NCBI GenBank assembly: GCA_029204225.1
Contig: CM055097.1
Location: 3,876,620 to 3,940,619, forward strand
From: Diphasiastrum complanatum
Taxonomy: Eukaryota; Streptophyta; Lycopodiopsida; Lycopodiales; Lycopodiaceae
Reading direction: 5' to 3'
DNA length: 64,000 nucleotides
The translations under genes and the position numbers were made by a program. Below are positions 40,990 through 51,430 of the stretch, in pieces (position 1 is the first letter of the stretch; the number at the start of each line of letters is the position of its first letter). The notes under the pieces are model-generated. The model ran no database searches. It saw only the letters and a list, made by a program, of their open reading frames with translations, and was not told where the DNA came from.

Positions 40990-41210
40990 ATACTGGATCC
41001 CCTAGTCAGAGGTTAGGCCATAGTCGCGGGTCATCCCGCCTTTCCTCTATGAGCCCTAAGTGAGCTTTTTAGTTACCTTGACCAGTTGTCTTCCTCGCAT
41101 TAGGATAGGGTCTTACAGCGCTTGAGGGCTCGACGCGAGGCTCGTAGCTCCTCCCGATTGGTTGAGTACACATCATCGACCGAGGAGATTCAGTCCACTC
41201 CTTGTGTAGA
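40990..41210 (+). pseudogene. Partial copy of the Ser-rich ORF found at 50.9 kb
   Basis: Aligns on the same strand with 50885-51115, sharing GCGGGTCATCCCG and, in translation, RARREARSSSRLVEYTSSTEEIQS against RARWDAQSSGRLSTSSCSEEIQS. Similarity ends at about 41208, where the sequence passes into the gene remnant starting at 41257. Family not recognised; present twice, so it is a repeat. Confidence 0.65.
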
Positions 41211-41256
41211 CCAGTCACATGTTTCCCTATATAGAAGCTCTTGGAAAGGCAAGATA

Positions 41257-42406
41257 ATGGATTTTAAAGTATCACTTGCCGGTCAATCTATCACGGAAGT
41301 TTTAGTTCAGCATGCTTATCTTCACAATGAGCTCAACATTCATGATTTGAATCCAAATGATAGAAGAAAATGCAATTGTAAGTTTTCAGATTTAATTTCT
41401 TTTAAGGTTAGCATTTTCTTTAAATTATATTTTTCTTGTGATATTTTTGTTGGTTTTGCAGATTTGTATCCATCAAATTTCATTGAATGGCAAACAGTTC
41501 AATCGATTGCAGGAATAATCGATGTCATACATTCAGATATCGGTATTTTACAATATAAAGGTCGTTCTCCAAAATCACTTTTAGAGTCAGGAGTTTTCTT
41601 TTATGATCACATCTATTTTTCTGATAAAAATGGTCTAGTAGGTAGATTAGAGCCATATCCTCTACCAAATTTTTCGAGTAAGGAATGGATTTCTCCTGAT
41701 GCAGCAATTTCAAAAAGTTTTTGATCTAGGCTATATATTGATATTCAAAGTATATTAAAATGTAGCACTGGATCAAAGAATAATAGATTAAGTTGGTATC
41801 TACCTTTTAATATTTTTGTTGATTTTTTTTCCAAATGCAATGTTCGGAGAACGAAAACAATGTTTATTTGTAAGGACTTGACTACTAAAATAATCGCCGA
41901 GTTGTTGGATGATGGTTGGGATACAAAACAAAATCAGCAAGTTGAGTGCAAAGTATGTTACTCATCCATGACATTTAGATATCACATCGAAAAACAAATG
42001 CTCACTTTGCTGCTGTATTATAGAAGATGGATTAAATCCAAAAATGTTTGGAAGCCACTTGATTAAGATTTTGTTATAAACCCTCAAGCGCAACTTCAGA
42101 TAACAATGAAAAGAAATGACAACATTTTTGCAATGGTTGAGGTTGAGGAAGATTGGTGTCTCAATGACATTCGATCAGAACTAGACATGCTGCAATTCGA
42201 TCTACCTCAGTACTATCAATTTCGATTGAATGGTGTAAAGGTACGTTATGCCATGTAAAAATATTTCTTTTTTTCTATTTCTAAGTGAATCAGTTTCATA
42301 AAATATATTAACTGAAACAATTTCTCTTGTGCAGGTAAGAGTAAGGCAGAAAGGGCATATAAAATGCAAAGATATTGGAACATCCATCGAAATTGAAGAT
42401 CCATAG
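41257..42406 (+). pseudogene. Intron-containing gene remnant ending in a possible ubiquitin-like domain
   Basis: One frame runs from the ATG at 41257 to a TAG ending at 42406 across two introns: 41378-41461 (84 nt, GTAAGT...TTTTGCAG) and 42241-42334 (94 nt, GTACGT...TTGTGCAG). Exon reading gives GQSITEVLVQHAYLHNELN, then SNFIEWQTVQSIAGIIDVI, GVFFYDHIYFSDKNGLVG and LTTKIIAELLDDGWDTK. The end reads VEVEEDWCLNDIRSELDML, FRLNGVKV and KCKDIGTSIEIED, a strand-helix-strand order like a beta-grasp (ubiquitin-like) fold. TGA at 41722-41724 and TAA at 42064-42066 break the frame. I do not recognise the protein. Sequence upstream of 41210 belongs to another repeat, so the real 5' end may be lost. Confidence 0.6.
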
Positions 42407-42544
42407 ATTATGAGCTATGGAATTTTGTATTATATGTAATACAATTTTTTGTATACATCATCTTTGAAAATATATGAACCACTTTTTCTATAAGGCTCTT
42501 TCATTTCTATGATCTTTGTTTTCATGGTGCAAAACACAATGTAA

Positions 42545-42650
42545 TTGCAATTGGATAATATGAGTTCTCGATAACAAGATTCATTGTCTCCTATAGGAAA
42601 TGCATTATCTCCATTGGGGAGATCTTCAGTCACTTGAATTCCAGTAACCA
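42545..42650 (-). pseudogene. Decayed second copy of the last exon of the C48-like gene
   Basis: The minus strand shares CCAATGGAGATAATGCA and flanking sequence with the last exon at 43256-43092, and reads SPMEIMHF then MNLVIENS against FPMEIMHF and IKLVIKNS there. Two stops interrupt it. A partial duplication about 0.6 kb from the original. Confidence 0.7.
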
Positions 42651-42658
42651 CTACAATC

Positions 42659-42677
42659 AGATATCGAATCGATGCTT
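42659..42677 (+). repeat. Half unit of the 71-bp repeat (left arm only)
   Basis: GATATCGAATCGATGCTTG matches the left arm of the 71-bp units; no right arm is found 52 bp away. Confidence 0.5.
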
Positions 42678-42707
42678 GCCCTTGTTGAAGTCTCGTATAT
42701 ATCGGTT

Positions 42708-42932
42708 GTATTTTTTGTCTTCATTGCCTTGGTCTGTATTGTCCTTGTCTTGGCATATTTGGATATATTCAGATGATGATCTGATCAAAGCTTTGCTGCA
42801 ACAAATCTAAATGAACTAATGTCGCATGTTTGGATTGGTTGTGACAAAGGTTCGATCAGATCATCATTCTGAACTTATCCAAAAAAAACCATGGTAAAGA
42901 CAAGGCAGACCAAGGCTATGAAAAACAAACAT
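42708..42932. repeat. Long imperfect hairpin (foldback)
   Basis: Left arm from about 42708 to 42812 pairs with 42829 to 42932. The best parts are GCCTTGGTCTG / CAGACCAAGGC and GATGATCTGATC / GATCAGATCATC. The loop is about 16 bases. Total about 225 bp, almost all stem. Could be a foldback MITE or a degenerate inverted duplication. Confidence 0.75.
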
Positions 42933-43504
42933 GTCGGAATACCGTAGAAATTGAAGATGAATGAATCATAACCTCATTTGATAAGAGAAAAAAAAAACAA
43001 GTAAGAACAACCATAGAAAAACTATAAATATATTTCTATTAAAATTTTCTGTACATGTGTCTCATCCACATCAAGTGAGACGAATATTTGATCAGTATCG
43101 ACTATCTATGATCTCTAAATCCATTTCTCCAGTTGGAAGTAGCTTGGGTGGAGAACACTCGGCCACTGCAACTGGACATGAATTTTTGATCACAAGCTTT
43201 ATGGTCTCCTTCCTGAAGTGCATTATCTCCATTGGGAAGACCTTCGGGCATTTAAACTGAAAAAAAGAACATAAACACAGTTAAATGTAATTAATCAAAG
43301 ATCAATTAATAGAAATTTGAATATAAAAAAAACAAAAACATAGGTAAAAGCTATTAATCGAAGATTACCTCTTCCAGATTTGGAAGTCCATCTTGTAGTG
43401 CAAGCCAATTAAAAAAGTGTTTGGCATTGCATACAGTATACCAACCACAACTAACAGAATCAACTTGCTGGGAGGGTTGCAGAATCCAAATTTTAATATT
43501 ATGA

Positions 43505-43575
43505 GATATCGGATCAACGCGCAGGATGTTATAATTAAATCGACAACGGACACAAGCGCGCGTCGAATTGATATC
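43505..43575. repeat. 71-bp inverted-arm unit 1
   Basis: Left arm GATATCGGATCAACGCGCA; right arm (complement) GATATCAATTCGACGCGCG. 71 bp from outer edge to outer edge. Confidence 0.88.
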
Positions 43576-43591
43576 CAAAAAATATTGTTTT

Positions 43592-43662
43592 AATATTGGA
43601 TCAACGTGCACGTTATGAAAAGAAACCAAACAATAACTACAAGGGCGCATCAAACCGATATT
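43592..43662. repeat. 71-bp inverted-arm unit 2
   Basis: Left arm AATATTGGATCAACGTGCA; right arm (complement) AATATCGGTTTGATGCGCC. Starts 16 bp after unit 1. Confidence 0.85.
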
Positions 43663-44152
43663 GATAAATTTTTACCTCTGCATCAACAATTTTTAGTTTC
43701 GTATATGCTTTTGTATTTGGTATTGGAAAGGGCCAATATTTTCTGGATATGGCTCTTGGCAATTGTGTGTGTGTGTGTGTAATAGAGTTCATCTTTAAAC
43801 AAACTGGATTACGCACACCCTCATCATTGACGTATAAGGACAACACATATAAGATCCAATAATCACTGCAATCAGAAAACAATAAATTTATGAGAATCAA
43901 TGTGAAAACAAAATTCATATGAAAAATTCACATAATAAAATTTGAAAAAAGACACTTACTTTGTTATGTATGACAGCACGAGAATTGGAGTCCCCAGTCT
44001 GACGTGTTGGAGCATATCATCGTGCAGACTTTTGAAATCAGGGAAATGAAATGCAGCCATGAATTGAAGGGGAAACAATGCTACATCTATAAACAATGGG
44101 GTCTGGAAAAACTCCATCTAGTACTAAATGGCCCCACCTCCTACATTGTCAC

Positions 44153-45168
44153 CTAAACTAATTCACCTGTATCTAAACTAGAAAGGGGAAGACCAGCATT
44201 GGTCTTCGGCATCCTAAAACTGTATCGAGGAACTAAAGCTTTAAGATACGTGTTTAACAATTGGTCATACTGTACATATTGAGGAGTATTTACAAAGGCA
44301 AGTGTAGGGGGTGACGGAAGTAATACAGATAAACCAGAAAAAGAATTGTCATTCAAAATTGATTCTACATTTACATTAACAAAATCATCTAAATCATTTC
44401 CTAGAACAGGTGGAGGGGAACCAATATTTATGGGGGTAGGAGGAGGAGATTTAGGAGGAGATTTATTAGGAGAGAAAGATTTAGTAGGAGAAGGTAAAGA
44501 TTGAGTTCTGGGAGAAGGAGAAGGAGACTTAGGAGGAGAATTGGGAGGAGAATGCCTCGAAGAAAGAATCTCATCTAGAGGAAATGTCTTGGAAAAATCC
44601 CTCGCTTTATTTGGAGGGTCAAGAGACCTCCTCTTCTTTGAAACACTCCTGTTCTGTATACGAATAACAAGCCGGGATGCTTGAGATTGCTTTTGTTTTC
44701 TCCTCTCTGAATCTTGTTTTGGAGGAGAGGAGTGAGTGGGTCTAAAGTATTCTACAAATTTGTCATATGTGTCCCAAAGCCTGAACACAATGTTGAAATC
44801 CTTGGGCATGATGGTCACCCTCTTGGCATGGATAGCTGCAACAATAGTATTTGAAAAAAAAATTTCACCTGAAAATCCTCATATGCAGTGTGCAGCGCCT
44901 CAATTGTTGTTACCGTCCATCTCACATCTGTAGATAAACTTCTTGTAACCTGTCTGATGGATCTCTGTATGTGAGCTTTCGGAATCAGAAGATTATTTGT
45001 CTTTTGTAGCTTCCGAATATCCTTTAGCCAGGGTGGGTCTCTTCTTCTACTCCTTGGCCTAGGAGGAGGTGGTGGTGGACGAGGTGGTGGTGGTGGATTT
45101 TCCTGACCCGCTCCTGAGATTGGTATTCCACTAGGGTGGCCTTGTGTTGTTTGTTTGGTCCACGCCAT
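44153..45168 (-). pseudogene. Histone H3-like protein with a long Pro/Ser-rich C-terminal extension
   Basis: ATG at 45168 opens MAWTKQTTQ (histone H3 starts MARTKQTAR), followed by a proline-rich tail of normal H3 tail length. DIRKLQKTNNLLIPK at residues 50-64 lines up with REIRRYQKSTELLIRK of H3. The alignment then continues without gaps through STDVRWTVTTIEALHTAYED (residues 78-98). A 9-base A run (44854-44862; T on the coding strand) breaks the frame. Seven bases instead of nine would restore an exactly collinear fold ending AIHAKRVTIMPKDFN, nearly identical to H3 (AIHAKRVTIMPKD). Instead of stopping, the frame continues about 200 residues (SPPNSPPKSPSPSP, NKSPPKSPPPTP) to a stop at 44153. 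Loop 1 is not lengthened as in centromeric H3, although RWT is a centromeric-type residue trio. Identity to H3 over the fold is roughly 40 % by eye. Confidence 0.8.
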
Positions 45169-45211
45169 TAATGTCCACGAAGAAGGAGAACCCAAGATAA
45201 GAAGTCAGGTC

Positions 45212-45230
45212 GAGTGCGTCGAACCGATAC
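45212..45230 (-). repeat. Half unit of the 71-bp repeat (right arm only)
   Basis: GAGTGCGTCGAACCGATAC fits the right arm; the matching left arm would overlap the start codon of the H3-like ORF and is not recognisable. Confidence 0.55.
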
Positions 45231-45254
45231 TTGAGCCCAACCAAACCGATAGCT

Positions 45255-45325
45255 GGTAGCAGATGGGCGCGCATGAGTAATAGCGGATGGAAGGAAGTTT
45301 GTTTCGAGTGCGCTGAATCGCTATG
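45255..45325. repeat. 71-bp inverted-arm unit, degenerate (unit 7)
   Basis: Left arm GGTAGCAGATGGGCGCGCA matches the consensus at about 13 of 19 positions; right arm ends GCGCTGAATCGCTATG. Outer length 71 bp. Lies in the presumed 5' leader of the H3-like gene. Confidence 0.5.
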
Positions 45326-45383
45326 CATGGATGTAGAGAACTGTAAGAACATTAAGCAAAAAAATTTCAGCATCGTCCATCAG

Positions 45384-45391
45384 TATATATA
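45384..45391 (-). promoter_or_regulatory. Putative TATA box of the H3-like gene
   Basis: TATATATA within CCCTATATATACTG on the minus strand, about 215 bp before the start codon at 45168. Confidence 0.5.
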
Positions 45392-45701
45392 GGGAAAATT
45401 CGAAATGATTGCAAACGTGGTGGGTTGGATGTACGAGGTTCGAATTACGATGATGATTACTCCGAGTCTTGTCAATCAAATCAAACTAAATATCCATCTA
45501 TCATCAAAATGATTAGTCGATATTGAATAAACCAAAATTAATTTCAACTAAAGTATGGTCACATCTACAATTAAAGCTACAAAAGTATGGTCACATCTAC
45601 AATTTATTTTTGAAATTGACAAGGTTAAACTATAAATATCTGACCTTTGTTATATCCAGTCATTATAATTTCGAAAAATTCGAACGGCCATTATTTCACT
45701 C

Positions 45702-45772
45702 AATAGCCAATCGACGCGCATATATTGCATGTGAAAACCAAAGAAGTTATTCTCGCGTGCTGAACCGATATT
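45702..45772. repeat. 71-bp inverted-arm unit 3
   Basis: Left arm AATAGCCAATCGACGCGCA; right arm (complement) AATATCGGTTCAGCACGCG. Confidence 0.82.
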
Positions 45773-45915
45773 GGAAAATAATATGAATGATCAAAGCTTG
45801 ACTCGATAGATTCTCCTTAGCTTTGGACAATATGAAGAGTCTACCGAATCAAGGTTTGATCATACATAATGGAGTCCAATAGTTTCCAAAATTTCAAAAA
45901 AAAATTTGTTCTTGC

Positions 45916-45985
45916 AATAGCAATTCGACGCACGCAGTCCAAATGAAGAATAACCATCTTTTGCCAGGCGCGCTGATCCGATACC
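45916..45985. repeat. 71-bp inverted-arm unit 4 (70 bp)
   Basis: Left arm AATAGCAATTCGACGCACG; right arm (complement) GGTATCGGATCAGCGCGCC. One base shorter than the others. Confidence 0.8.
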
Positions 45986-46379
45986 TGATACCCAAAAAAA
46001 CTATATTGGAGCATCTTATGAACGGCTAATGAAAATGTTCTGAATGAACATTATCTCAAAAGAAAAAATGTCATCTTTACTCTGCTTAAATAGGACGAGA
46101 GATTGTAATATTTCTTCTCGTACATGTTTTTCAATGATGTCCATTTATCATTTGTTTATTATTTATTTAATGATTATTCAAGGAGGCTATTGATTGAATA
46201 TTTAATGTATTCGGACGCATGTACAGATTCTAGAGTCAGGGCTAATTATGACTCTTTGAATCTAGTGATAGATTAGTTAATGTATTCCGGCGTAAGTACA
46301 AATTTGCCTCACTCTGATTGGTGGGTGTTTCTCAATTCGTTATTTGACAAATGTATGACTATGATCAACAAGAATTGGC

Positions 46380-46387
46380 TATAAATA
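46380..46387 (+). promoter_or_regulatory. Putative TATA box of the divergent plus-strand gene
   Basis: TATAAATA in GGCTATAAATATGGGC, 285 bp before the ATG at 46665; units 5 and 6 would fall in the 5' leader. Confidence 0.55.
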
Positions 46388-46466
46388 TGGGCACCACTTG
46401 CCCTATTTTGATTCCTTGATCTTTTATTTTGGACTCACTAGTCTTTTTGTTTTCTTTCTATCTCGC

Positions 46467-46537
46467 GATATCGAATCGACGCATGTCTTTCCAAACAGTG
46501 CATGGTCAGATTCATTCAGATGCGCTGAATCGATATC
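46467..46537. repeat. 71-bp inverted-arm unit 5
   Basis: Left arm GATATCGAATCGACGCATG; right arm (complement) GATATCGATTCAGCGCATC. The arms agree at 15 of 19 positions. Confidence 0.88.
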
Positions 46538-46584
46538 AACCACTTCTGACGTGTGCTCGCGGCAAATTTCAATCTCATCCTAAC

Positions 46585-46655
46585 AATATTGGATCAACGT
46601 GCGTACTCTTGTTCATTCCTATACCAATATCATTCTGTCGCATTGAACCGATATC
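46585..46655. repeat. 71-bp inverted-arm unit 6
   Basis: Left arm AATATTGGATCAACGTGCG; right arm (complement) GATATCGGTTCAATGCGAC. Ends nine bases before the ATG of the downstream ORF. Confidence 0.88.
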
Positions 46656-46664
46656 AGGTTCAAT

Positions 46665-47370
46665 ATGGCTAGCTCTTCCATGTCCTCAGATAACAAACTT
46701 CTGGATTTTTTTAATGCCAGTGACATTTCATCTGAGAAATTAGTGTATTTTGCTAGTATTTTTTTTGCTCCCTTCGATATCGGTAAGCTAGTTTATGAGA
46801 ATCATTATGATTTAATTTCTCTTTTTGATAATTTTTCTCAGACTATTAGTACTCCTATTCAGAAAATAGATAGTTTTTGTTTCGTTCATTTTCAGGACCT
46901 TGTGCATTCCCAACCATCCTCTAAGCATAAACACCTGCATGATCATTTCAAAAAATATATATATCGTGATATCCACAAAAGAATATGTCGCCTTCTTATC
47001 AAAGGAATGACATTTGTCTTTTACATATCTACTGAAATTCCAGATAATGAGTCTGTTGAATCTTCAACTATTCCATTGATCGAGGCATCTGCACCTGCTC
47101 CAGTTGATGTAGATGATGCAGATACTGATACAGGGGTTGAAGCTGAAGCATCTATGGCTTTAGATTATCAAAAAACTCTCCTTTGTTCTATAATCCTCTC
47201 TGATTCTCGTCCATCTGCATCTCCTGTTAATCAATTAACTCTACTCGATGTTTCCTTATAGTTTATAAATAACGAAAGTTATATTTCATTTAATGATATA
47301 AAAGATGTTTTGAATTTGAGAGAGGATAAAATCCTCTCATTTTTGCTCAAAATTTATCTGAATTTCTAAC
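46665..47370 (+). pseudogene. Unidentified ORF divergent from the H3-like gene
   Basis: ATG at 46665 directly after unit 6. 198 codons to a TAG at 47259-47261, then the same frame stays open for about 35 more codons (NNESYISFNDIKDVLNLRED). The N-terminal half is hydrophobic and probably helical (KLLDFFNASDISSEKLVYFA, FDIGKLVYENHYDLISLFD). It is followed by a His/Lys-rich stretch and an acidic, Ala-rich region (DVDDADTDTGVEAEASM). A GTGAGT at about 47418 could be a donor site, so more exons may follow. I recognise no family. Its promoter region and repeat units are shared with the H3-like gene, so the two probably belong to one element. Confidence 0.5.
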
Positions 47371-48090
47371 ATTGTTGATTACTCAGAATGCCTTTCGAAA
47401 TATCGTAATACTTGGTGAGTTTTTAGCTTGATATCTAAATTGTGCTCTTCTATAAAACCACTGAAAAAGTTGAACTAAATATTTATTTCTTAAATTGTGT
47501 CCTCCATGATTTGTTGCTCTATGAAATGATCCCCTTGCTTGCCAATAAGATTTTTTCATGCCTTGTGATGACCAGATACTTAAGCTCCCATATTTCTTTG
47601 CAAAATAAGTTGCATGATGAAGAAAGATGTGCTGCGAACAATAGTTTTAATTAGTTACATCAGTAGAAAAAAATATAAACATGAATGAGATAAATACCAA
47701 ATAATGATATAGATTAGCACCATGCAAAATCACCATTGTCTATTCCCCAACAATCATGTACAGATTTTACAAATGTGGTGCAATGATTTTGCAAAGTTCT
47801 CATATCTTCTGATGATAGGTTTTCTTTCCTGATAACACCTATAAGTTTGTCTAAGTTGGTCCACTTGTCCCTTTTCCACTCGATTACTTCCTTCTAGTGT
47901 TTGTGTGGCTTGAATAATTTCTCTCTAAATTTCGTATATGACACTTGATTCTTTGCATGTGTGATTGGATAAAAATCTTCTTGCTTTAGCACCTCCAATT
48001 GATGGCTTATTAGAACGTTTTCTTTTTTCTCTGAGAGTCTATCACTTTTTTCAATCGTGACATTCCCTTTATGTAGTCCTGCATTTGACA
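47371..48090. other. Boundary interval, no gene seen
   Basis: Short ORFs without recognisable domains. The right edge of the H3/protease region must lie here or nearby, before the gypsy fragment; no terminal repeat was found. Confidence 0.35.
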
Positions 48091-48093
48091 GAA

Positions 48094-48900
48094 CTATTTC
48101 CAACCTCCTAATTGCTGCTTTAGGATGCGTTGTTCATTCGTCCATTTGGAAACTACAACTACTTTGTAGATTAAGTGTGCTTTGTTAGCAAAATAAAAAA
48201 TAAAGCACCGATAGTAGTTGGTGTGGCCAAGGAAAGAGTAAACTTCGCGTATCGTACGCGGTTCTGGTAGATTTTGAATGATAAGGATCTTTTCGAGGTC
48301 AGTGGCAATGTCATTTCGGAAAATACTATGTCCTAACACAATACCATGTGTTACCCAAATCTGGCATTTTTCAAGATTAAGGGAGATGCCGAAGCATTGA
48401 CATTGGATAAAAAAAATTTCGACCACAGACAGATGGCGTGTTTCTTCTGAATGTGCACCTAAATCGTCCAAGCAAACCTCTAGGGTATCGCTCATCTACT
48501 GAGAAAAGGCAGCTTGCATAACATGTTGGAAGGTGCTAGGGACATTGCAGAGCCCAAAAGGCATGACTTTCCAGCAGAAGGTTCTCCATTCTGTGGCAAA
48601 AGTGGTTTTATGTTGATCTTCTTCAGCAATTTGGATCATATTGTATCCACTAAAGCCATCTAAGGAGTAAGCCTCATCTCCTGCTAGATTTTCTAAGATG
48701 GATTCTTCGAAAGGTAATGGAAAATGATCACGTTCAGTGATGGCGTTAAGTTTCTTAAAGTCGACACAGATTCGGAGTTTTCCATGGAACGATGACAATT
48801 GGGGAGACCCACTCAATATGTTCGATTTCATAGATAAATCTCGCATCTAAGAGGCGTTGTAATTCTTCTTTGATCTTGGCCTTATAGATTGGATTGCATC
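48094..48900 (-). pseudogene. gypsy reverse transcriptase (copy C)
   Basis: Reads FIYEIEHIEWVSPIVIVP (near 48830), KLRICVDFKKLNAITERDHF, the first catalytic Asp in SLDGFSGYNMIQIAEEDQHK, VMPFGLCNVPSTFQHVMQAA, and after a stop the active-site LDD in EVCLDDLGAHSEETRH (Cys in place of the usual Tyr before LDD). It ends with VYSFLGHTNYYRCFI and the start of the connection region. A TAG at 48496-48498 lies between the two halves. Confidence 0.88.
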
Positions 48901-50290: not shown

Positions 50291-51430
50291 TATAAACTGG
50301 GATGTTGTTCCTCTGGTACAACATGAAATCCATTTTATGTTTTTTGAATTTGCTATTCTCTCTCACTCCCATACGATTGTTCGGAAGACTTATTCATGTG
50401 TCTTGCATGTGCAAAAAAAACAAGGTCCACATGACGGAGATGATCAGGAGGAATTAGATAGGTCTAGCTAGTGTTTTGGGCTCTATAGCTAGTCTTTCCA
50501 TGTTTACAGACGCTTGTGTACATGTTTTTACATATATCATTTTTATTCGTACATTTGTCAGCCATCTTTCGATGTAGCTAGTTTTTTTATGTAATCTTGA
50601 ACCTTGACTAGTCATGTAATTGAAATGTATTTGGCCCTAAAACCATGTAGAAATGTTTAATTTATTGATTATAAAGTGTAATTATTGTGGTTAACGTGTG
50701 ATTATTGTGGTTTATAGTAATATATTCAACTATGGTTGAATGCAAAGAATCATCTTTTTTTGTTCTACCCTAGACCCTTAACTCATTTATTTGAATTTAT
50801 TTCTTGCACTAATTAACTCTATATGGTTGTATGTTCTAAAAATATATCTTATTGCTTGCAGAGATTATTCCAAATCGTGTCCCCAATGTCTCATGACACA
50901 TCTCCAAGTCACGGATCTGGCCGTAGTTGCGGGTCATCCCGTTTTTCATCCATGAGTGATGATGAGGTCCTCAGTTATATGGATGAGATGTCTCCCTCGC
51001 ATGCAGGCAGGATTATGGAGAGACTACGGGCTCGTTGGGATGCACAGAGTTCAGGTAGGTTGTCCACATCATCTTGTTCTGAGGAGATCCAGTCCCCACA
51101 ACCCTCCGACCGAGGTGTTCCCCCCTTCCACGAGCGTCTATCCAGCGGGAGTCCCTCCCCCACACACTCTAATGCTAGTGCCTCTTCCCGACATTTCGGC
51201 TGAGAAAAGAGCGATCGTAGGAGGAGTCGCCTCAACGGCAGCTCCTGTTGTGGCGGTGATGCCGATGATGTCGTGCTTCATGCGGCCTCTAGTCCAGCTG
51301 TTAGCAGATTCCAGGGAATCCCCAGATGCCGAGCCAAGCTGAAGACATAGATTATCTCTCACCCATGACCGAGGAGGTCTTGGAAGGAGAAGAGCAGAAG
51401 AAGCTGAGAGCCGAGCATGAGAGCCGAGAA
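50291..51430 (+). pseudogene. Ser-rich repeat-encoded ORF with a probable intron
   Basis: A first piece (about 50290-50470) ends EELDRSS. A second begins after a good acceptor (ATTGCTTGCAG, near 50861) and reads MSHDTSPSHGSGRSCGSSRF, SYMDEMSPSHAGRIMERLR, SSGRLSTSSCSEEIQSPQPS to a stop at 51201-51203, with further frames to about 51430. A shorter copy sits at 40990-41210. Low-complexity Ser/Pro content and two copies suggest a transposon-encoded protein, but I do not recognise the family. The link between the first and second pieces is inference. Confidence 0.45.

Follow-up and report, generated by a model that had tools for sequence, protein, structure and literature searches.

Elements of the En/Spm (CACTA) group carry many subterminal TNPA motifs of 12 bp, in both orientations and near the promoter; the TNPA protein, encoded by the element, has roles in transposition and in methylation. 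VANDAL elements are Mutator-like elements (MULEs), with a MULE transposase and target duplications of about 9 bp. A VANDAL-encoded protein of Arabidopsis, VANC, reads family-specific noncoding motifs of 8–9 bp (YAGTATTAY, AGTTGTCC/AGTTGTAC) that are arranged in tandem repeats (PMC5735166, PMC10398659); an inverted arrangement, palindromes and spacing are not mentioned in the main text of PMC5735166. The present analysis concerns a stretch of 64,000 nucleotides of Diphasiastrum complanatum (contig CM055097.1, positions 3,876,620–3,940,619; hereafter the window) that contains a truncated copy of a DNA transposon with a histone H3-like gene and a series of units, each composed of two inverted 18-bp arms. 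Repeated binding motifs in plant transposons are already known; in this element the dyad has a near-invariant 71-bp geometry, combined with free centres. We propose that these 70–72-bp units are probably the binding sites of an element-borne protein dimer, serving expression or anti-silencing as well as mobility.

Dyad units in the window and in the host genome

The distribution of arms was examined by scanning both strands of the window with a position weight matrix, derived from 12 of the same arms. This analysis revealed 16 arms scoring above 11 bits, all located within positions 42660–46655, while the best arm-like site elsewhere in the window reached 10.3 bits. Fourteen of the arms are paired, forming seven units, and two (42660 and 45214) are alone (Table 1). 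In 20 simulated first-order Markov windows, used as the chance baseline, the top single site scored 18.5 bits and a mean of 20.75 sites exceeded 7 bits. In the real window, 13 of the 16 arms score above 20 bits; those at 42660 (16.5 bits), 45255 (11.1 bits) and 45308 (17.1 bits) are individually below the simulated maximum. The 18-bp arm consensus is RATATCGRWTCRRCGCGC, and arms of this length leave a 35-bp centre, with arm starts 53 bp apart (52 bp in the 70-bp unit).

These results bear out most of the initial annotation of this DNA, which was made from the sequence alone. The units that it placed at 43505, 43592, 45702, 45916, 46467 and 46585, together with a degenerate one at 45255, were all recovered, as were outer lengths of 71 bp with a single exception of 70 bp (the unit at 45916). 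Both of the half units that it listed were found, the first starting at 42660 rather than 42659 and the second lying at 45214–45231; its coordinates are thus accurate to a few bases. Its fixed geometry stands, with dimensions that had to be revised from 19-bp arms, a 33-bp centre and arm centres 52 bp apart to those given above.

The 1.74-Gb host genome was searched with a strict two-arm palindromic pattern, for which reversed patterns served as controls. The dyad searches spanned outer lengths of 56–86 and 87–117 bp, and shorter spacings were covered by a scan of fetched loci (40–110 bp). The single arm, with up to 3 mismatches allowed, gave 5878 matches, compared to 93 for the reversed pattern. 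Strict dyads with an outer length of 56–86 bp numbered 407, 388 of them 70–72 bp long, and only 3 were detected at 87–117 bp; the reversed two-arm controls gave no genome match, and the two-arm pattern gave none in viral contigs. Among the 50 matches listed, 41 are 71 bp long, four 72 bp and two 70 bp, with one each of 58, 65 and 78 bp, the last three being members of a class with palindromic centres (see below). The genome-wide two-arm search that the initial annotation had suggested as a check gave nearly all matches in these ranges at 70–72 bp, and the fixed spacing with unrelated centres, described there for the window, holds throughout the genome.

The scan of the fetched loci (with the near-identical L023, L025 and L032 and the short L001–L008 omitted) identified 122 units at outer lengths of 40–110 bp, of which 87 measure 71 bp, 13 measure 70 bp, 11 measure 72 bp and 11 have other lengths. 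When the units were sorted according to their centres, and a few of the resulting groups joined by eye, 103 units (palindromic class excluded) fell into 15 types, and in each of these the commonest length is 70, 71 or 72 bp. The similarity of centres between types is close to that of shuffled sequences (mean score −4.3, compared to −5.3 for shuffles); types n9 and n15 are clearly related and form the sole pair above the shuffled maximum, all other pairs being at or below it. In the 30 type-consensus arms, positions 3, 4, 10 and 14 are invariant and nine others agree in 25–29 cases. The gaps between units are variable (15–16, 23–24, 46–49, 134–144 bp and more), whereas the distance within units is nearly constant. 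At the measured rate of 7 insertions or deletions (indels) per 413 substitutions, 0.4–0.9 indels would be expected per centre (assuming 0.75–1.5 substitutions per site), yet every unit type is 70, 71 or 72 bp long. Since the centres are nearly as dissimilar as shuffled sequences and indels are to be expected, the constant length favours a constraint on the unit length, although few of the types count as independent.

The host transposon and its genes

The twenty 10-kb loci fetched around exact arm matches all belong to a single transposon family, and most share 80–92% identity with the window across extended regions (L018 down to 75%). Relative to several of these copies, the window copy lacks about 0.8 kb at 47385/47386. 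The element is bounded by CATTAGGGGATATTAGAACTCAAAATGGGCCC at one end, while the opposite end carries, in inverted orientation, either CATTAGGG(A/G)AAATATGGGCTCAAAATGGGCCC or a variant containing GTTTGGATTC; right ends were located by a mismatch-tolerant search. With no more than one mismatch, the first end (its first 21 bases) has 899 matches in the genome and the second end 945, compared to 0 for the controls. All 12 end pairs that were read, having been selected by that end, begin with CATTAGGG, and the ends of L009 and L017 begin with CAATAGGG or AATTAGGG. None of the 12 elements for which the two ends were available (10 pairs plus L012 and L038) showed a target-site duplication, and a single flanking base common to both sides occurs in three of them, as chance predicts.

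One or both element edges are known at 14 loci. Here, 124 arms fall within the element (64.7 kb) and none in the 82.8 kb outside, which comprise 57.1 kb of the window and 25.7 kb of other flank. In this count the locus end was used where the far edge is not known (several elements), and weak lone arm-like sites (12.9–13.0 bits) in L029, L031 and L032, where the edges are not determined, were omitted.

Several units are retained in short derivatives of 1.4–2.7 kb (L034, L036, L038 and L041), the sequence of L038 being covered whole and the others in part. The nearest units lie 0.4–0.6 kb from the element end in L034–L036, L040 and L041, compared to at least 3.4 kb inside from the end in the full-length copy L021. 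The short derivatives also contain a second class of units, with long palindromic centres carrying CCCTTAGGGTTTGAG. Eleven of its 16 members are 70–72 bp long, and the rest measure 58, 64, 65, 78 and 103 bp. In loci L033–L037, nearly perfect palindromes of AATATCGGTTCAGCGCGCGCCCTTAGGGTTTGAG and its complement take turns with a further long palindrome (gagctcgacgagagctttgcaacggcacc...); the centre resembles plant telomere-like boxes. Imperfect larger palindromes, both with GATCAAAGCTT, are also present inside the window element, at 42710–42932 and, between u3 and u4, at 45769–45881.

In two genes of the element, units follow a TATA-like box and precede the ATG: u7b and u7a in the case of the H3-like gene, and u5 and u6 in the case of the plus-strand open reading frame (ORF) that begins at 46665. 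The window copy of the H3-like gene has a frame change near 44857–44860, whereas its homolog in L021 (L021:3339-3881) is a single frame, with a Pfam histone match of 7.7e-22 and a match to a histone H3 variant chain in PDB (9e-20 over 130 residues). A genome search with the H3-like sequence gave 10051 candidates; the 150 that were scored all match, with 76–100% identity. At least 14 of the 119 matches on large numbered contigs lie 1.0–1.8 kb from a place with an exact arm (99 such places tallied). The proximity of units to H3-like ORFs, which the initial annotation had raised, was observed in 16 of the 20 exact-arm loci but does not extend to L033–L042, short derivatives among them, in which no H3-like match was detected. 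By eye, L041 shows MARTKQTTLARING directly after a unit, and L040 shows MAHTTQTTWIHP.

The encoded protein has the histone fold of H3 but not the ARTKQTARKS tail with both K4 and K9. Of 11 copies, 10 have lysine K4, and all lack K9, with G or V in its place, as counted in the 13 rows that reach residue 1 with the near-identical L023 and L025 omitted. The K14–K27 stretch is replaced by a different, Pro-rich sequence. For the H3-like core (54 codons), the ratio of nonsynonymous to synonymous substitution rates (dN/dS) is 0.46 as a ratio of means (range 0.09–1.11; 21 pairs of 7 copies, including the partly out-of-frame L028), and 0.09 for the window compared to L021. Comparison of the H3-like ORF with a large protein collection, which evidently says little about plants, gave 15 candidates, none at E≤0.001. 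Among the best-ranked titles listed in literature searches, none pointed to a plant transposon with a captured H3, which does not prove absence.

In a Pfam scan of 28 ORF pieces, a set that includes overlapping pieces and pieces taken from different copies, histone was the only family above the cut-off (scattered matches of coiled-coil type were disregarded). The DSVSCGWYT stretch of the ORF overlapped by u1 and u2 resembles by eye the motif of Ulp1-type proteases, but the protease-like label of the initial annotation found no Pfam match. Near the right end, open frames in L063 (412–2897) and L010 (2651–3217) have a coiled-coil-like start and, further on, WHLAGDLK...HPCLYC and QGMEKSHW stretches. 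By eye they resemble fragments of a transposase gene, with no Pfam family above the cut-off.

Outside the element, two 57-bp pieces that flank it (40997–41053 and 50900–50956) are 77% alike, with similar ORFs at 41104 and 50817. A long open frame on the minus strand (3–2144) looks by eye like a PPR protein with a DYW-type end, presumably a typical land-plant gene; the genome size, together with the PPR and retrotransposon content as judged by eye, points to a land plant.

Table 1. Units, genes and other features of the window, with example elements from other loci (units and arms as located by the weight-matrix scan)
Feature	Position	Strand	Remarks
Truncated copy of the host DNA transposon	41228..48123		by comparison with other copies, which extend past both edges in common sequence
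Lone left arm	42660..42677	+	arm start 42660+
ORF with DSVSCGWYT stretch	43357..43671	-	no Pfam match; overlapped by u1 and u2
u1, 71-bp dyad	43505..43575		arms 43505-43522 and 43558-43575; arm starts 43505+/43558-
u2, 71-bp dyad	43592..43662		arm starts 43592+/43645-
Remaining histone fold and Pro/Ser-rich tail, other frame	44156..44878	-	Pfam Histone 0.00099, below cut-off
H3-like ORF starting MAWTKQTTQG, with Pro-rich linker and first part of histone fold	44818..45168	-	Pfam Histone 6.1e-11 on 44818-45204
u7a right arm	45214..45231	-	arm start 45214-; no recognisable partner arm in window, partner seen in other copies (e.g. L018, L019, L022)
u7b, 71 bp, left arm weak	45255..45325		arm starts 45255+/45308-
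TATA-like box	45385..45391	-	66 bp before u7b on the H3-like gene strand; 58-69 bp in 8/8 copies
u3, 71-bp dyad	45702..45772		arm starts 45702+/45755-
u4, 70-bp dyad	45916..45985		arm starts 45916+/45968-; 70 bp in 8/9 units of the u4 cluster
TATA-like box TATAAAT	46380..46386	+	87 bp before u5; 86-89 bp in 6/7 copies
u5, 71-bp dyad	46467..46537		arm starts 46467+/46520-
u6, 71-bp dyad	46585..46655		arm starts 46585+/46638-; stops 9 bp upstream of the ATG at 46665
Predicted ORF	46665..47258	+	no Pfam match; part of a longer frame (335-344 amino acids) in L016, L021
Example elements with both ends	G000:C1:2588394-2596722; L012:3176-9611; L038:364-1907

Candidate explanations of the fixed geometry

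The proposed explanation is that a protein dimer, or two bridged dimers, would read one arm on each side of the unit. The two arms would have to be separated by some five helical turns, so as to present the same side of the helix, and the DNA between them would not be read. The units would then be cis-acting parts of this family of transposons with CATTAGGG inverted ends. The binder is probably encoded by the element itself, and its binding may serve the expression of element genes or anti-silencing, as well as mobility, in the manner of TNPA and VANC sites. In its favour are the genome-wide spacing, the equal length of types with largely unrelated centres, the independent variation of left and right arms, the confinement of arms to the element where an edge is known, the preserved distance from TATA-like box to unit, and the retention of units in short derivatives. 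Several observations weigh against this explanation. A third TATA-like box, located before u3, is kept in only three of seven copies. The candidate binder ORFs have no Pfam match in the pieces scanned, where no binding protein was found, and structure prediction for the plus-strand ORF was of no use (predicted local distance difference test score, pLDDT, 33.5); the binder could also be a host factor. The 388 dyads are not independent, because units of the same type share descent, and only about 13–15 types can be counted as independent. With CpG sites included, in a comparison that also took in the arms chosen by exact match, the arms (0.847 and 0.836) are no more alike among copies than the flanks (0.843), the centres being less alike (0.799). 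Arms (0.656) have kept their CpG sites to much the same extent as flanks (0.605), which gives no sign of protection from methylation decay and so argues mildly against an anti-silencing role. On the supporting side, in non-CpG columns, which are not independent and from which the two arms chosen by exact match were omitted, the arms (0.901) appear modestly ahead of the flanks (0.858, p 0.035), and they also exceed the centres (0.813, p 0.0005).

The shared decay of arms and flanks, CpG included, would also suit a history of inheritance only, in which a few old duplications within one element, marked by CpG-rich and easily found arms, fixed the length of units that have no function. Each type is indeed passed on with its element copy, and the additional units close to u4 in L018 and L022 resemble local duplications by eye. 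Inheritance alone nevertheless appears rather unlikely, since the arms have remained recognisable throughout and the length has stayed within 1 bp of 71 in every type, despite the near-shuffled centres and the indels expected in them. The inverted arrangement of the arms could alternatively mean that the unit is required as a DNA or RNA hairpin (a cruciform, a leader hairpin or a small-RNA precursor) with the centre as its loop. The related class with long near-perfect palindromes in L033–L037 is in keeping with this, as is RNA folding in three of the seven window units (z −2.05 to −2.32), but u3 and u4 form no arm stem and the mean within-unit arm identity is 68% (103 copies). The left/right covariance test that had been suggested in the initial annotation revealed that the arms vary independently. 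Arm identity over 15 types is 14.07/18 within units and 14.25/18 between units (permutation p=0.76), and in the 103 copies right arms shuffled within type pair better (12.69) than those observed (12.32), a value that may be depressed by the detection threshold. Nor did the joint change of the terminal base pair, claimed from the window, hold up: it fits window units 1, 2, 3 and 5 but not the one at 46585, and position 1 agrees in 6 of the 15 types and in 48.5% of the 103 units, compared to 43.8% expected. The lack of left–right covariation favours a protein-bound DNA dyad and disfavours a required hairpin; a protein reading each arm is a simpler account than arm pairing. Of the two possibilities put forward in the initial annotation, the bound dimer is supported by the genome-wide fixed spacing with free centres, and the hairpin, weakened by the covariation tests and only partly matched by the folding, is not supported and seems quite improbable.

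The units could also be regarded as minute miniature inverted-repeat transposable elements (MITEs), that is, 71-bp pieces moved by an arm-binding transposase, given the inverted arms at both edges and the abundance of arm matches in the genome. The initial annotation had named a dispersed simple MITE as one of the findings that would overturn its view. Such an element is not supported and is highly improbable here: the centres differ between units (fifteen types), no direct repeats were seen by eye at the edges of the window units, and the arms are confined to one kind of element where its edges are known. The position of units 58–89 bp behind the TATA-like boxes of two element genes would be compatible with binding by a host transcription factor, whose dimer sites the element gathered as promoter elements without a protein of its own. 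This account, which differs from the one we prefer solely in the source of the protein, is unlikely as well: neither the 57 kb of the window outside the element nor the 25.7 kb of other flank contains an arm, so that nothing indicates that host genes use the arms, and short derivatives without an H3-like match still hold several units.

About 71 bp is also the length of DNA wrapped by an H3–H4 tetramer. Conceivably, the element H3, with K4 kept and K9 and K14–K27 lost, might be placed at the dyads together with a dimeric element protein, allowing promoters and ends to escape H3K9 methylation; we consider this improbable. If true, it would mean that a plant transposon builds its own silencing-resistant chromatin. 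The occurrence of the dyad in both promoters and short derivatives provides a directly testable handle on the form of the putative binding protein. An H3 without K9 and insertion without target-site duplication bear on silencing resistance and on the number of transposition mechanisms in plants.

Comparison with known transposons

Like En/Spm, the element described here contains many copies of a short, element-specific motif in both orientations, and the motif is subterminal and close to the promoter of the element. It differs in that the arms are paired at one fixed distance and are 18 rather than 12 bp long. Its ends are CATTAGGG and not those of CACTA elements (CMCWR), a 3-bp target duplication was found in none of 12 elements, and the right-end gene, scanned in separate pieces, gave no credible Pfam match, Tnp2/Transposase_21 included. 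Unlike the copies of a MITE, the units have no common centre (fifteen types) and lie inside one larger element where an edge is known.

Spy transposons insert between AAA and TTT, and the 12 insertions read here do not have such flanks. The inverted ends and the insertion without target duplication (12 of 12) are features shared with Spy, which is described as lacking target-site duplications in a title cited in PMC10045372. Multiplication of an H3 gene by a DNA transposon also has a precedent: a hAT transposon captured histone H3 in the fungus Pseudocercospora fijiensis and its relatives and amplified the gene to many copies (PMC6710886). Those copies are captures inactivated by repeat-induced point mutation, whereas the H3 of the present element is diverged, with Pro-rich stretches, without K9 and with a dN/dS of 0.09 between the window and L021 (range 0.09–1.11 over 21 pairs), and it resides in a plant transposon that leaves no target duplication. 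A chromatin gene, proposed to counter silencing, is likewise carried by fungal DNA transposons with a TET/JBP dioxygenase, but the enzyme and the elements are different and the abstract does not mention paired sites (PMC12730594).

With respect to VANDAL, the present family has neither a target duplication (0 of 12) nor a MULE Pfam match in the ORFs scanned; these gave no Pfam match to a DUF1985/VANC-like protein either, the genes possibly being split by introns. The likeness lies in family-specific DNA motifs that a transposon family holds in its noncoding regions and that are read by an element-encoded protein in VANDAL, and probably so here. The motifs themselves are built differently, as tandem VANC motifs of 8–9 bp in one case and as paired 18-bp arms in the other.

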